NCBI GenBank assembly: GCA_001803465.1
Contig: MHDE01000019.1
Span: forward strand, 1-36,561
DNA: 36,561 nucleotides
Reading direction: 5' to 3'
Origin: Microgenomates group bacterium RIFCSPHIGHO2_01_FULL_45_11
Lineage (GTDB): Bacteria > Patescibacteriota > Microgenomatia > UBA1400 > 2-01-FULL-45-11
A program made the position numbers and the translations under genes. Positions within the stretch are counted from its first letter, which is position 1, and every line of letters begins with the position of its first letter. The notes under the pieces were generated by a model. The model worked only from the letters and a program-made list of their open reading frames with translations. It ran no database searches and was not told the origin of the DNA. Positions 7,094 to 11,184 of the stretch are shown in pieces.

Positions 7094-7609
7094 ATGAGTC
7101 AAGCAAAGAAACTTCGCCTTGGTTGGTTTAGCTTCACTTGCTGCGAAGATTCTACCATTATGTTCACCGAGCTCATGAATGAACATTTTTTTGAGTGGAA
7201 AAAGCTGATTGACTTTCGCCACGCTCGGGTTTTGAAAGCCAAAAACACCCTTGATGAACTTGACGTCGCCTTTGTCGAAGGCGCTATCGCTAGCGATATT
7301 CAAGCCGAAAAGCTCAAAGAAATCAGAAGCAAGTCAAAAAAACTCATTGCCATCGGCTCCTGCGCTGTCACCGGCTTTCCTTCCGCCCAGCGTAACCTCT
7401 TCCCTCCAGAAATGAAGGCGGAAATTCAACATATTCTTGACCAGTTCCACCATGCCGAAAAAATCCGCCGCTTAGACGAAATTGTCCCTGTCGACGCCAT
7501 TGTCCCCGGTTGCCCCATGGACACCGATAAGTTCCTTAAACTGCTCAACCAATTGCTCATAGAATTTGACATTACCCCAATCACCTCGCCACTAACCACT
7601 AATGGCTAG
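7094..7609 (+). CDS. [NiFe]-hydrogenase small subunit-like protein (single proximal [4Fe-4S] cluster size class)
   Basis: ORF 171 aa; LGWFSFTCCEDST, FVEGAIAS, IGSCAVTGFPSAQRN, VPGCPMD correspond to the small-subunit/NuoB-fold cluster ligand pattern (N-terminal Cys, GxCA, GCP). Confidence 0.9.
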   Translation: MSQAKKLRLGWFSFTCCEDSTIMFTELMNEHFFEWKKLIDFRHARVLKAKNTLDELDVAFVEGAIASDIQAEKLKEIRSKSKKLIAIGSCAVTGFPSAQRNLFPPEMKAEIQHILDQFHHAEKIRRLDEIVPVDAIVPGCPMDTDKFLKLLNQLLIEFDITPITSPLTTNG

Positions 7610-7628
7610 TCGCTAATTACTATTGCTG

Positions 7629-8915
7629 ATGCATAACCAATCTTTTGACCTGTCTCTCAAGGAAATTTCTAAAATTGAAGGCACTGCCGGCATAGACGTT
7701 AAAGTCACTGATGGCAAGGTCGAAGACGTCAAACTCAAACTCACCGATTACCGTCGCTTTTATACCAACGCCGTTCGCGGTAAACCGGTTAACGCCGTCC
7801 CCCAATTAGTTGCCCGCATCTGCGGCACCTGCAGTAACGCTCATCTTCTCGCCAGCCTCAAGGCCATTGAGCTCGGCCTCAACATAACCCCATCTCCCCA
7901 AACTCAACTGATGCGCCGTCTGCTTACCAATGGCCTCATGATCCGCGACCACGGCCTCCACCTTTACGTTTTCGCTTTACCGGACGTTCTCGGCAAAGAT
8001 TCAATTCTTGATTTTGACGAAGCTAACCCCCATGAGCATCAACTTCTCCACGACACCTTCACCGTCAAACAAGCCGGCAACCAACTTTCGGTTGCCTTCG
8101 GCGGCCGTAGCGTCCACGCTCCTTACCCCACCATCGGCGGCTTCACTCACTTTCCCAGTAACCAAGACATCAAAATATCTATAAAACAACTTGAAGAAGC
8201 CCGCCCCGCCGCTCTTTTCTTAATCAAAGTCTTTACCAACTGCTCCTTCAACCAAGAAGATAAAACCCTCTACGTCTCCCTCACTCACGACCATTACGAC
8301 TTTCTTGATGGTTTAGTTACCACCTCAACCAGTCTGAAAATATCTCCCAGTGAAGCTCGACCACATCTTAACCGGATCGACATTCCCTACTCTCAAGGCG
8401 CTAGCTATACTTGGGATAATCAAGCATTCATGGTCGGTGCTTTATCCAGAATTAATCTAGCCAAAACAAAACTTCATCCTTCTACCCAGCGTGATGCCGC
8501 TTCTGCACTTAATTTCTTTCCCTCCACCAACATTTTCCATAACAACCTCGCTCAAGCCATTGAAATTCTCCACTGCCTCGACGACAGTTTAGACATTCTC
8601 CGCTCACAAACTTTTTCTCCTGAACCATTAGCTCAATCCTCGCAGGCAGAAGGGCAGGGAACTGGTATTATCGAGGCACCGAGAGGCCTCCTCTACCACG
8701 CTTACGACATAAAAGACCGACTGGTAACCAAAGCCGAAATCATTGTTCCCACCGGTCAAAACCAGTTGAGCATGGAGAAAAATGCTCGCCAAGTTGTTGA
8801 AAAAAATCTTGACCAAGAAAAAGAAATTATCGCCTTAGAACTGGAAAAATGTATCCGCGCCTACGACCCCTGCATTTCTTGTGCAACCCATTTTCTCAAA
8901 ATCCGTTGGCTTTAA
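7629..8915 (+). CDS. [NiFe]-hydrogenase large (catalytic) subunit
   Basis: L1 motif RICGTCSNAH and L2 motif DPCISCATH both intact, so all four Ni-ligand cysteines are present. ORF track starts at TTG 7623; ATG at 7629 preferred. Confidence 0.95.
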   Translation: MHNQSFDLSLKEISKIEGTAGIDVKVTDGKVEDVKLKLTDYRRFYTNAVRGKPVNAVPQLVARICGTCSNAHLLASLKAIELGLNITPSPQTQLMRRLLTNGLMIRDHGLHLYVFALPDVLGKDSILDFDEANPHEHQLLHDTFTVKQAGNQLSVAFGGRSVHAPYPTIGGFTHFPSNQDIKISIKQLEEARPAALFLIKVFTNCSFNQEDKTLYVSLTHDHYDFLDGLVTTSTSLKISPSEARPHLNRIDIPYSQGASYTWDNQAFMVGALSRINLAKTKLHPSTQRDAASALNFFPSTNIFHNNLAQAIEILHCLDDSLDILRSQTFSPEPLAQSSQAEGQGTGIIEAPRGLLYHAYDIKDRLVTKAEIIVPTGQNQLSMEKNARQVVEKNLDQEKEIIALELEKCIRAYDPCISCATHFLKIRWL

Positions 8916-9312
8916 GGATACCAGCAACCTCAACTGCCGCCTTTTTTTCTGACAAATTTGCTGGCACTGCCACGATGTTAATTTTTGGCAGCTTCTTTAA
9001 TTTCTTTAGAAGCGATAGTTCAAACCCCAAATCATAATCATGAACGCTAACACTTTTTACTAGAATAAACTTGTCTATGTCGTCAAATACAGTGGTTGTA
9101 TCAATTCCCACTGCAGAGTCTAATAACCAACATTTTCCTACAGACTGCTCCAATGTTTCGGTCGGATCAAACTCTTTGAATTCAACTTTAGGAAATTGCC
9201 GCTTCAGCCTTGGCAGCAACTTAATTACCAACGAATCTTGAGGCACCACCGGACTCCCTAATACCCGTACTATTTTTTTAACACTACTCATTACTTTCTG
9301 TTCATTGTTCAT
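8896..9312 (-). CDS. Hydrogenase maturation endopeptidase (HycI/HyaD/HoxW-type) family protein
   Basis: ORF 138 aa; VLGSPVVPQDS near N-terminus, LLDSAVGID, SVHDYDLGFELSLLKKL (conserved His region). True start may be the internal Met of MSSVKKIVRVLGSP. Confidence 0.78.
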   Translation of the reverse strand: MNNEQKVMSSVKKIVRVLGSPVVPQDSLVIKLLPRLKRQFPKVEFKEFDPTETLEQSVGKCWLLDSAVGIDTTTVFDDIDKFILVKSVSVHDYDLGFELSLLKKLKKLPKINIVAVPANLSEKKAAVEVAGILKANGF

Positions 9313-9315
9313 TCA

Positions 9316-10062
9316 CTAAAGCGTCTCATTCGCCAACCGCAAATTATGACGAGTATAATGGGAAAGCCACGCTACTTGCTTTAAAGTCAGTTTCTCACAG
9401 ATAAACCCCCAGTGATAACTCACCCAATCACCAGGCTTTAAAGACTTGGCTAACCCAACATCGACTGAAGGAATTACTTCTCTAATAACATTACTTTCAA
9501 TAACTAGCTTACCCTTTCGATAAATCAACTGTTGAGTTTTAAGCTGTATTTTTAAACTTTGAAATTTTAAATTTGAATTATTAATTATCCTTCCCCACCC
9601 TATCCGACACTCGTTCATTGAGTCAATTGTGTGATCAATAGTCAGATGACCTGTTCGAGTAAAAATAGAGAACACATGAAAACTATGGTGAAAAAAAGCA
9701 CCCTTAGGAATCTTATCCGTTATCCACCGCCACACTTTAGTCTGAAGTCTTTTTTTTAACTGCTGCCCATAAAGCAGTGTCTCTGCCATTTCTTTTTGAC
9801 GAACTTGATGTAATAAATTATTTCCCACCCAATAAGCCTCCACTACCCGCTCGTCAAATGGGTCAGATAAATTATTTTCAGTGGCTATTGTTTTTAAATA
9901 CGGATAAAGCCCTTCAAAATCGACTAAATACTCTCTCAAACCCGTATCAACAATCTTCTCCGATAAATAACCCTCTAACCGTTTCCGGTTATCTGGACCA
10001 CAGTACCGGTAGTAATTCGGCGCAAACGCGTACCGGGAACACTTCAATAAGCCATCTCGCAT
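9316..10062 (-). CDS. DUF6390-like protein, hydrogenase-associated
   Basis: ORF 248 aa; MRDGLLKCSRYAFAPNYYRYCGPDNRKRLEGYL and C-terminal LTLKQVAWLSHYTRHNLRLAN. Family name recalled from resemblance, not searched. Confidence 0.65.
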   Translation of the reverse strand: MRDGLLKCSRYAFAPNYYRYCGPDNRKRLEGYLSEKIVDTGLREYLVDFEGLYPYLKTIATENNLSDPFDERVVEAYWVGNNLLHQVRQKEMAETLLYGQQLKKRLQTKVWRWITDKIPKGAFFHHSFHVFSIFTRTGHLTIDHTIDSMNECRIGWGRIINNSNLKFQSLKIQLKTQQLIYRKGKLVIESNVIREVIPSVDVGLAKSLKPGDWVSYHWGFICEKLTLKQVAWLSHYTRHNLRLANETL

Positions 10063-10064
10063 GA

Positions 10065-10985
10065 TTACTCGGTAGCAAACGGTGCTCTCACACCCTTACC
10101 CACTCTTCCTTCCACCGCCCATAAAGAAAAAAACCATACCCCAGCTACCACTAAAACCATCACCGCCACCTGTTGGAAAGGAAAAGCTTGTTTCTCAACA
10201 GCCGTCAACCCATTAGTTACCAACGTCGCCACAGTCAAAACAGTCGCCACCTGCGTTACCGGAACCAACTTTAAGGCTCGATACCACGTCGCCACATAAC
10301 CCAACAGCAATAAAGAAGTAAAACCTATCAACCCATACTGAAAAAGGGTCAATTGCGTCATCAGCTGCGCTTTGCCCTCAATCACCACCCAGGCTAAAAG
10401 TACCACTGACCCCAACCCCATCCGCGCCCCCACCACAATATCAGGGTCGACTCGACGCAATACTTTCTTGACAATCACATTCTCTATCGCCCATAACCAA
10501 GTCGCTCCCAAAATCATCAATTCTGCTTGACTAAACCGAAAACTCTTAAATCCTCCCACGAGCAGATTTGCAGAAAAAATAAGACCGAGTGCTCCCCATT
10601 GCCAAGACGACACTTTCTCTTTCAGTAACGGTATGGCGATCAGCGCCACCCAAAATACCAGCGTTTTGTGAATGAGGGAAGCATTGATTGCTGAAGTCTG
10701 GGCTAAGCCGCCAAAAAATAAATAAAAAGGAATGCTTCCACCCACAATCGCAATCACCACTAGAAGACTAATTTCCCTTTTACTCAACTGTCTTAATTTA
10801 GGCAACTTTTTAGAAATGACCAAAAAAGAAACTATTAACAACCCCACTAAGGCATTTTTCAAGGTGGTATGCACCAACGGATCACCCACTGCTGTCAGAG
10901 TAAATTTATTGGCATAATTAGCTACACCAGAAAAAAGCGCGGTTAGCACTGCTAACCAAAGACCTTTTTTAAGACCTGATCGCAT
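10065..10985 (-). CDS. EamA/DMT-superfamily membrane transporter
   Basis: About 10 hydrophobic segments; GLWLAVLTALFSGVANYANKF, LASLIHKTLVFWVALIAIPLLKEKVSSWQWGALGLIFSANLL-type EamA layout. ATG at 10985 preferred over TTG 10991. Confidence 0.82.
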   Translation of the reverse strand: MRSGLKKGLWLAVLTALFSGVANYANKFTLTAVGDPLVHTTLKNALVGLLIVSFLVISKKLPKLRQLSKREISLLVVIAIVGGSIPFYLFFGGLAQTSAINASLIHKTLVFWVALIAIPLLKEKVSSWQWGALGLIFSANLLVGGFKSFRFSQAELMILGATWLWAIENVIVKKVLRRVDPDIVVGARMGLGSVVLLAWVVIEGKAQLMTQLTLFQYGLIGFTSLLLLGYVATWYRALKLVPVTQVATVLTVATLVTNGLTAVEKQAFPFQQVAVMVLVVAGVWFFSLWAVEGRVGKGVRAPFATE

Positions 10986-11184
10986 TAACAACTCCTTTTA
11001 AAACCTGCTGCATCGTCAGGACTTCAGATGCCTTTAATTTTTCCACGGCTAAATTTGACTTTACCAGCAGCCATTGCTTTGCTCGCACCTTCCCCACCAA
11101 TCCCAGCGCTACTTCCCGCCCGTCTGTCATCATCGCCGTCTTCTCACCTGCCTTTTTTACTTGCAACGGTACCGCCAAACACAT
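10969..11184 (-). CDS. hypC: Hydrogenase maturation factor HypC/HybG family
   Basis: 71 aa starting MCLAVPLQV with the essential Cys2; HypC size and fold. Confidence 0.9.
   Translation of the reverse strand: MCLAVPLQVKKAGEKTAMMTDGREVALGLVGKVRAKQWLLVKSNLAVEKLKASEVLTMQQVLKGVVNAIRS

Follow-up and report, generated by a model that had tools for sequence, protein, structure and literature searches.

The two-subunit 'hyd2' clade of [NiFe]-hydrogenases has been described in CPR bacteria (Jaffe et al. 2020, PMC7304191). In the sections of that report devoted to the clade, hyd2 consists of a large and a small subunit with no consistent beta and gamma subunits, is scattered over the CPR including Roizmanbacteria, and forms a long branch near group 3b; its authors call the partners unclear and the function uncertain, and those sections make no mention of a cysteine pair. 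A text search of the open-access literature found no paper that mentions a cysteine pair in the hyd2 small subunit. Elsewhere among hydrogenases, FrhG binds its proximal cluster through three cysteines and a non-cysteine ligand, Asp60 (PMC3930138, PMC3591093), and the group 2a enzyme Huc has a proximal [3Fe-4S] cluster (PMC10017518). The tandem cysteine pair of complex I has been called strained (PMC8042128). For the active site, HypCD is the hub of Fe(CN)2CO assembly, with HypC as its carrier (PMC11565642).

We analyzed a contig of 36,561 nucleotides (the window, meaning this whole stretch) from a Patescibacteria-type genome of 1.08 Mb that is 94% complete, encodes a single PF00374 protein, and has the Chisholmbacteria as its closest relatives by tree. 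The ORF at 7094..7609 on the plus strand encodes a [NiFe]-hydrogenase small subunit of 171 aa with one cluster site, whose translation reads ...LGWFSFTCCEDST...IGSCAVTG...VPGCPMD. It matches PF01058 with 70 bits, and its best model matches are sulfhydrogenase delta subunits, far below their cut-offs. Within TCCEDST, the motif C16-C17-E18-D19-S20 (7139..7153, +) aligns with positions -1, 0, +1, +2, and +3 of the CxxC in canonical small subunits. The only other cysteines of the protein are C90 of GSC (7361..7363, +) and C140 of GCP (7511..7513, +), both at cluster ligand positions that are conserved by alignment counts. The AlphaFold model has a pLDDT of 93.8. Three claims of the initial annotation are upheld by these data: a hydrogenase-type small subunit with adjacent cysteines in place of CxxC (from the translation, PF01058, and 103 relatives), room for one cluster only (at 171 aa the chain is comparable in length to HoxY and HydS, and it lacks the C-terminal extension that the Pyrococcus delta subunit and MvhG carry), and a partner large subunit in which the four cysteines that ligate Ni are all intact (RICGTC and DPCISC, PF00374).

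The cysteine pair is a trait of a whole family. A scan of 85,462 species genomes yielded 56 related loci, nearly all of them with CCEDS. Because the bait was partly a CC-containing peptide, we added wider sampling, comprising every PF01058 protein of 381 Patescibacteria genomes and the hits of a profile search in two classes, which enlarged the family set to 103 distinct proteins. The pair in the window protein is not due to chance: relatives from Patescibacteria, Micrarchaeota, Aenigmarchaeota, Woesearchaeota, and Nitrososphaera share WFSFTCCEDST exactly or almost exactly. CC is conserved across homologues: residue 16 is Cys in all 103 proteins, and at residue 17 only Cys (83 proteins) and Ser (20 proteins) occur. 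Having both cysteines is not a requirement, given that a fifth of the proteins have Ser17. The residues that follow vary little, with E18 in 103/103, D19 in 101/103, and Ser (98), Asn (3), or Cys (2) at position 20. Where group 3 enzymes have the canonical CxxC, the family has CCEDS or CSEDS, with CCEGC in 2/103. C90 and C140 are Cys in every protein that is complete at those positions, the lone non-Cys at position 90 belonging to a truncated sequence. The best tree implies 9 changes between C17 and S17, and no fewer than 3 are needed when well-supported branches alone are considered.

Among the first 82 proteins, Cys92 was present in every one with Ser at position 17, which had suggested a ligand swap. 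We rejected C92 as a replacement ligand, as L172, L177, L186, and L190 have Ser17 without Cys92; the frequent occurrence of CAC in aligned canonical small subunits is further evidence against such a swap rule. A stepwise path through TCCEGC was also rejected, the carriers of CCEGC being either an independent gain or an apparent return. A hyd1-like CPR clade (L073, L079, and L088 in genomes G251, G233, and G335) has CCEGC with the -1 Cys gained and CxxC kept, and this extra Cys is an independent gain because the corresponding large subunits (L135-L137) fall in the hyd1-like clade. The CCEGC of L054 and L181 looks like a return of the +3 Cys, not an ancestral state, because the two form a sister pair inside hyd2. 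Separately, other CPR proteins with PF01058 (L062, L063, L064, L067, L068, L070, L071, L075, and L076) have lost most cluster cysteines, with the motifs GSTNACEQEL or GSTNAEE and with GDPP replacing GCP. These are probably Ehr-type small subunits.

Adjacent cysteines are also found in NuoB, and the initial annotation took the window pair to be of the complex I type and the protein to be a possible intermediate between hydrogenase and complex I. Neither view was borne out. A BLAST alignment of E. coli NuoB with HycG places GLSCCYVEM on GCNGCEIEI without gaps, and C63-C64 of NuoB therefore lie at +2 and +3 of the hydrogenase CxxC. The window protein aligns by BLAST with a canonical CPR group 3 small subunit as WFSFTCCEDS on WFDFTSCEGC, which puts C16-C17 at -1 and 0 and S20 in place of the +3 Cys; alignments to PDB structures give the same register. 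Homology of the two pairs was thus rejected: they differ in register by three residues and so arose by different substitutions.

We find that the enzyme belongs to the group 3 [NiFe]-hydrogenases, on which fold, sequence, and large-subunit tree agree. In Foldseek searches, the group 3 small subunits HydS, HoxY, and the P. furiosus delta subunit occupied the top ranks with a TMq of 0.72-0.78, compared with 0.53-0.58 for complex I, and the nearest system by profile search was the alpha-delta heterodimer of Pyrococcus furiosus soluble hydrogenase I (SHI; 9e1j, 9e15). The partner gene at 7623..8915 (+) encodes a large subunit of 430 aa, identified by PF00374, motif counts, and tree position, with the L1 motif RICGTCSNAH, the L2 motif DPCISCATH, and a 7-residue tail, FLKIRWL. 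It branches with group 3 and not with groups 1, 2, or 4 in a quick tree search with few references (HycE/HyfG, HoxG/HyaB, HoxC, and HoxH). The hyd2 large subunits form one clade with a support of 100, beside other CPR group 3b-like enzymes and apart from the hyd1-like CPR enzymes. The four Ni-ligand cysteines, the EAPRG motif, and a short tail starting with FL are kept in the 92 readable large subunits. In 30 of these 92 (e.g. L015, L024, L025, L035, and L043), the His of DPCxxCxxH is replaced by Asn to give DPCMSCATN, a change apparently confined to one CPR subclade. No group 3b beta or gamma (diaphorase) genes lie beside the small and large subunit genes in the window, nor are such genes conserved neighbours among the 56 loci. 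The family matches the published description of hyd2 and, on the strength of that description, is probably the same clade.

These observations also bear on whether the small subunit is an evolutionary intermediate leading from hydrogenase to complex I, with an N2 cluster of the NuoB type. Its adjacent cysteines, its PF01058 membership, and weak matches of its GCP end to NuoB models are what such an intermediate might have; against this, the pair is three residues out of register, the fold and sequence of the small subunit are nearer to group 3, and the partner is a complete hydrogenase large subunit placed inside group 3. Complex I combines a 49-kDa partner without Ni ligands with membrane subunits, and the window contains no membrane or quinone-module genes. 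We consider an intermediate extremely improbable.

How the cluster is held can be approached from the pattern of conservation, from which we infer the iron-binding residues and the cluster type. That residue 17 is Cys or Ser and nothing else suggests, as far as sequences can, that it is the fourth ligand; putting Ser in place of a ligand Cys is the classic conservative substitution. The enzyme would then have one Fe-S cluster beside the NiFe site, held by the three fixed cysteines 16, 90, and 140 together with residue 17, mostly Cys and Ser in a fifth of proteins. One ligand would have moved from +3 to -1 of the old CxxC, independently of complex I, and the adjacent cysteines possibly tune the cluster. 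The occurrence of Ser17 is equally compatible with this residue being no ligand at all. Only Cys 16, 90, and 140 would then bind, either to a [3Fe-4S] cluster or to a [4Fe-4S] cluster completed by D19, S20, or water, with residue 17 a mere neighbour. L172, L177, L186, and L190 carry just these three core cysteines, E18 is invariant and D19 nearly so, and the Huc cluster (PMC10017518) and Asp60 of FrhG offer precedents. On the other hand, a mere neighbour would not readily account for Cys at residue 17 in 83/103 proteins with Ser as the sole substitute, and we regard ligation by three cysteines alone as a minority possibility, somewhat unlikely but of some weight. Overall, a soluble two-subunit group 3 hydrogenase with one cluster, ligated by Cys16, Cys90, Cys140, and residue 17 and fed by ferredoxin or an oxidoreductase, is a reading to which we give about an even chance.

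Four genes lie on the minus strand in the transcription order HypC (11184-10969), EamA, DUF6390, and a short HycI-like protein. HypC (10969..11184, 71 aa; PF01455, 36.7 bits) begins with MCLAVP and keeps the Fe-binding Cys2 position. An EamA-family membrane transporter (10065..10991; PF00892) was identified together with neighbour analysis, and this transporter is linked to the hydrogenase at many CPR and DPANN loci and absent from loci with HypD/E. The DUF6390 protein (9316..10062; PF19927) appears to combine a helical N-terminal part with a C-terminal OB domain resembling HypC. A weak HypC profile match at residues 195-228 and Foldseek matches to HypC with E about 0.03 accompany this assignment. 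P15, N16, C21, G22, W78, H126, C152, and H217 are invariant among DUF6390 homologues. In Micrarchaeota, Woesearchaeota, and one Aenigmarchaeota locus, the place of DUF6390 is taken by a shorter relative whose HypC domain is clear. EamA, DUF6390, or the short relative (cluster 7) occurs at 54/69 hyd2 loci without HypD/E, compared with 0/5 loci with them. The last gene (8896..9312) is probably a divergent HycI-like maturation protease; the HycI matches of the window copy (E=0.06) and of a homologue (E=0.0003) are both below the cut-off. A gene of ~134 aa on the opposite strand is found in this protease-like position at 43/56 loci.

To our knowledge, no [NiFe] cofactor synthesis proceeds without HypD. 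Of the full HypCDEF set of group 3, the 94% complete window genome has HypC; we found no HypD and no HypE in it, and its HypF matches are far below the cut-off. HypD was found in 0/24 hyd2-bearing Patescibacteria searched directly and in 1/26 hyd2 genomes of the 381-genome Patescibacteria draw; with both sets combined, it is absent from 34/35, single-contig genomes included. The sole CPR hyd2 genome with a HypD match is G267 (L099), in which the match is split over two contigs. HypD was also found in 0/14 DPANN hyd2 genomes, several of which have no completeness figure, and in 2/2 Nitrososphaera genomes, where the hyd2 members are accompanied by HypC, HypE, and HypF as well, as in the genome of locus L013. 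HypE and HypF above the cut-off follow the HypD pattern in the subset tested, the exception being the hyd1 controls G041 and G074, in which HypF is partial and below the cut-off; HypD was found in both of these genomes by the identical search. Low, single-domain HypF matches elsewhere probably represent relatives of acylphosphatase, YrdC, and Kae1. Most hyd2 genomes retain HypC, often beside DUF6390 and EamA. Incomplete assembly alone is an unlikely cause of the HypD absence, as the single-contig genomes G168, G198, G147, and G489 (98-99% complete) also lack it. Several hyd1-like CPR genomes are likewise without HypD, and so its absence is not unique to hyd2.

That HypD was not found, and that HypE and HypF gave no match above the cut-off, counts against our main reading, which does not account for how the NiFe site is assembled. 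One tentative possibility, which we rate as rather doubtful, is that the [NiFe] site is matured without HypD, HypE, and HypF through HypC, DUF6390, and EamA, using either an unknown Fe(CN)2CO route or an imported precursor. The same distribution, with HypD in 1/35 CPR and 0/14 DPANN hyd2 genomes and HypE and HypF above the cut-off missing from those tested, would also be expected if the protein were no active Fe(CN)2CO hydrogenase but instead carried another metal site made without HypDEF, was a relic, or served as an electron-transfer protein. Conservation of the Ni-ligand cysteines, EAPRG, and the putatively cleavable tail across 92 large subunits argues against these alternatives, as do the retention of HypC and of the protease-like gene and the presence of HypD/E/F in Nitrososphaera members, and we consider them unlikely.

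If the enzyme is an active hydrogenase, its most likely direct electron donors are reduced ferredoxin and a 2-oxoacid:ferredoxin oxidoreductase, either of which would lead to H2 release in fermentation. Genes for a Fer4_13-type ferredoxin or for KorA/KorB are present at 24/74 hyd2 loci versus 1/24 other hydrogenase loci, counts that are not independent because the loci are related. None of these ferredoxin and Kor genes lies beside the window copy; the window genome does encode a POR_N protein. From such associations we infer a fermentative, H2-evolving enzyme fed by the oxidoreductase or by its ferredoxin. For an engineered two-subunit form of P. furiosus SHI, POR is a direct electron donor but ferredoxin is not (PMC3200332), so that the precedent extends to one proposed donor and not to the other.

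Altogether, the enzyme is a stripped-down two-subunit hydrogenase found mainly in ultra-small bacteria and archaea. Since the proximal cluster governs electron exchange with the partner as well as oxygen tolerance in hydrogenases, a moved ligand with repeated Cys/Ser flips at the neighbouring site provides natural variants for testing what such a cluster needs. If active, this would be a very small hydrogenase driven by ferredoxin or POR. HypD is almost entirely absent, and HypE and HypF are missing from the genomes tested for them, which raises the question of how the [NiFe] site is built or whether the site is a different one; if maturation is indeed HypD-free, the enzyme would depart from the norm there as well as in its shifted cluster ligands.

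Compared with known systems, the family resembles the hyd2 clade, as set out in the sections of the 2020 report cited above, in its two subunits, its spread over the CPR, and its place near group 3b, and it extends beyond that CPR description to DPANN and Nitrososphaera. NuoB/NDUFS7 of complex I shares the superfamily and an adjacent cysteine pair, but has the pair at +2/+3 instead of -1/0, indicating that such pairs arose more than once in the superfamily. HoxY (5xf9) and HydS (7t2r), both of group 3, are the best Foldseek matches and similar in length; however, HoxY has a CxxC proximal motif, and both are parts of larger complexes with diaphorase subunits. FrhG of group 3a likewise has the fourth cysteine of its proximal cluster replaced, but by an Asp ligand, with no extra Cys at -1 and with a C-terminal ferredoxin domain. 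The SHI dimer of P. furiosus is of group 3b, has two subunits, and is close by fold, whereas its delta subunit is a longer chain with a canonical CxxC (TSCYGC), and the dimer holds three [4Fe-4S] clusters by published count where hyd2 has room for one.
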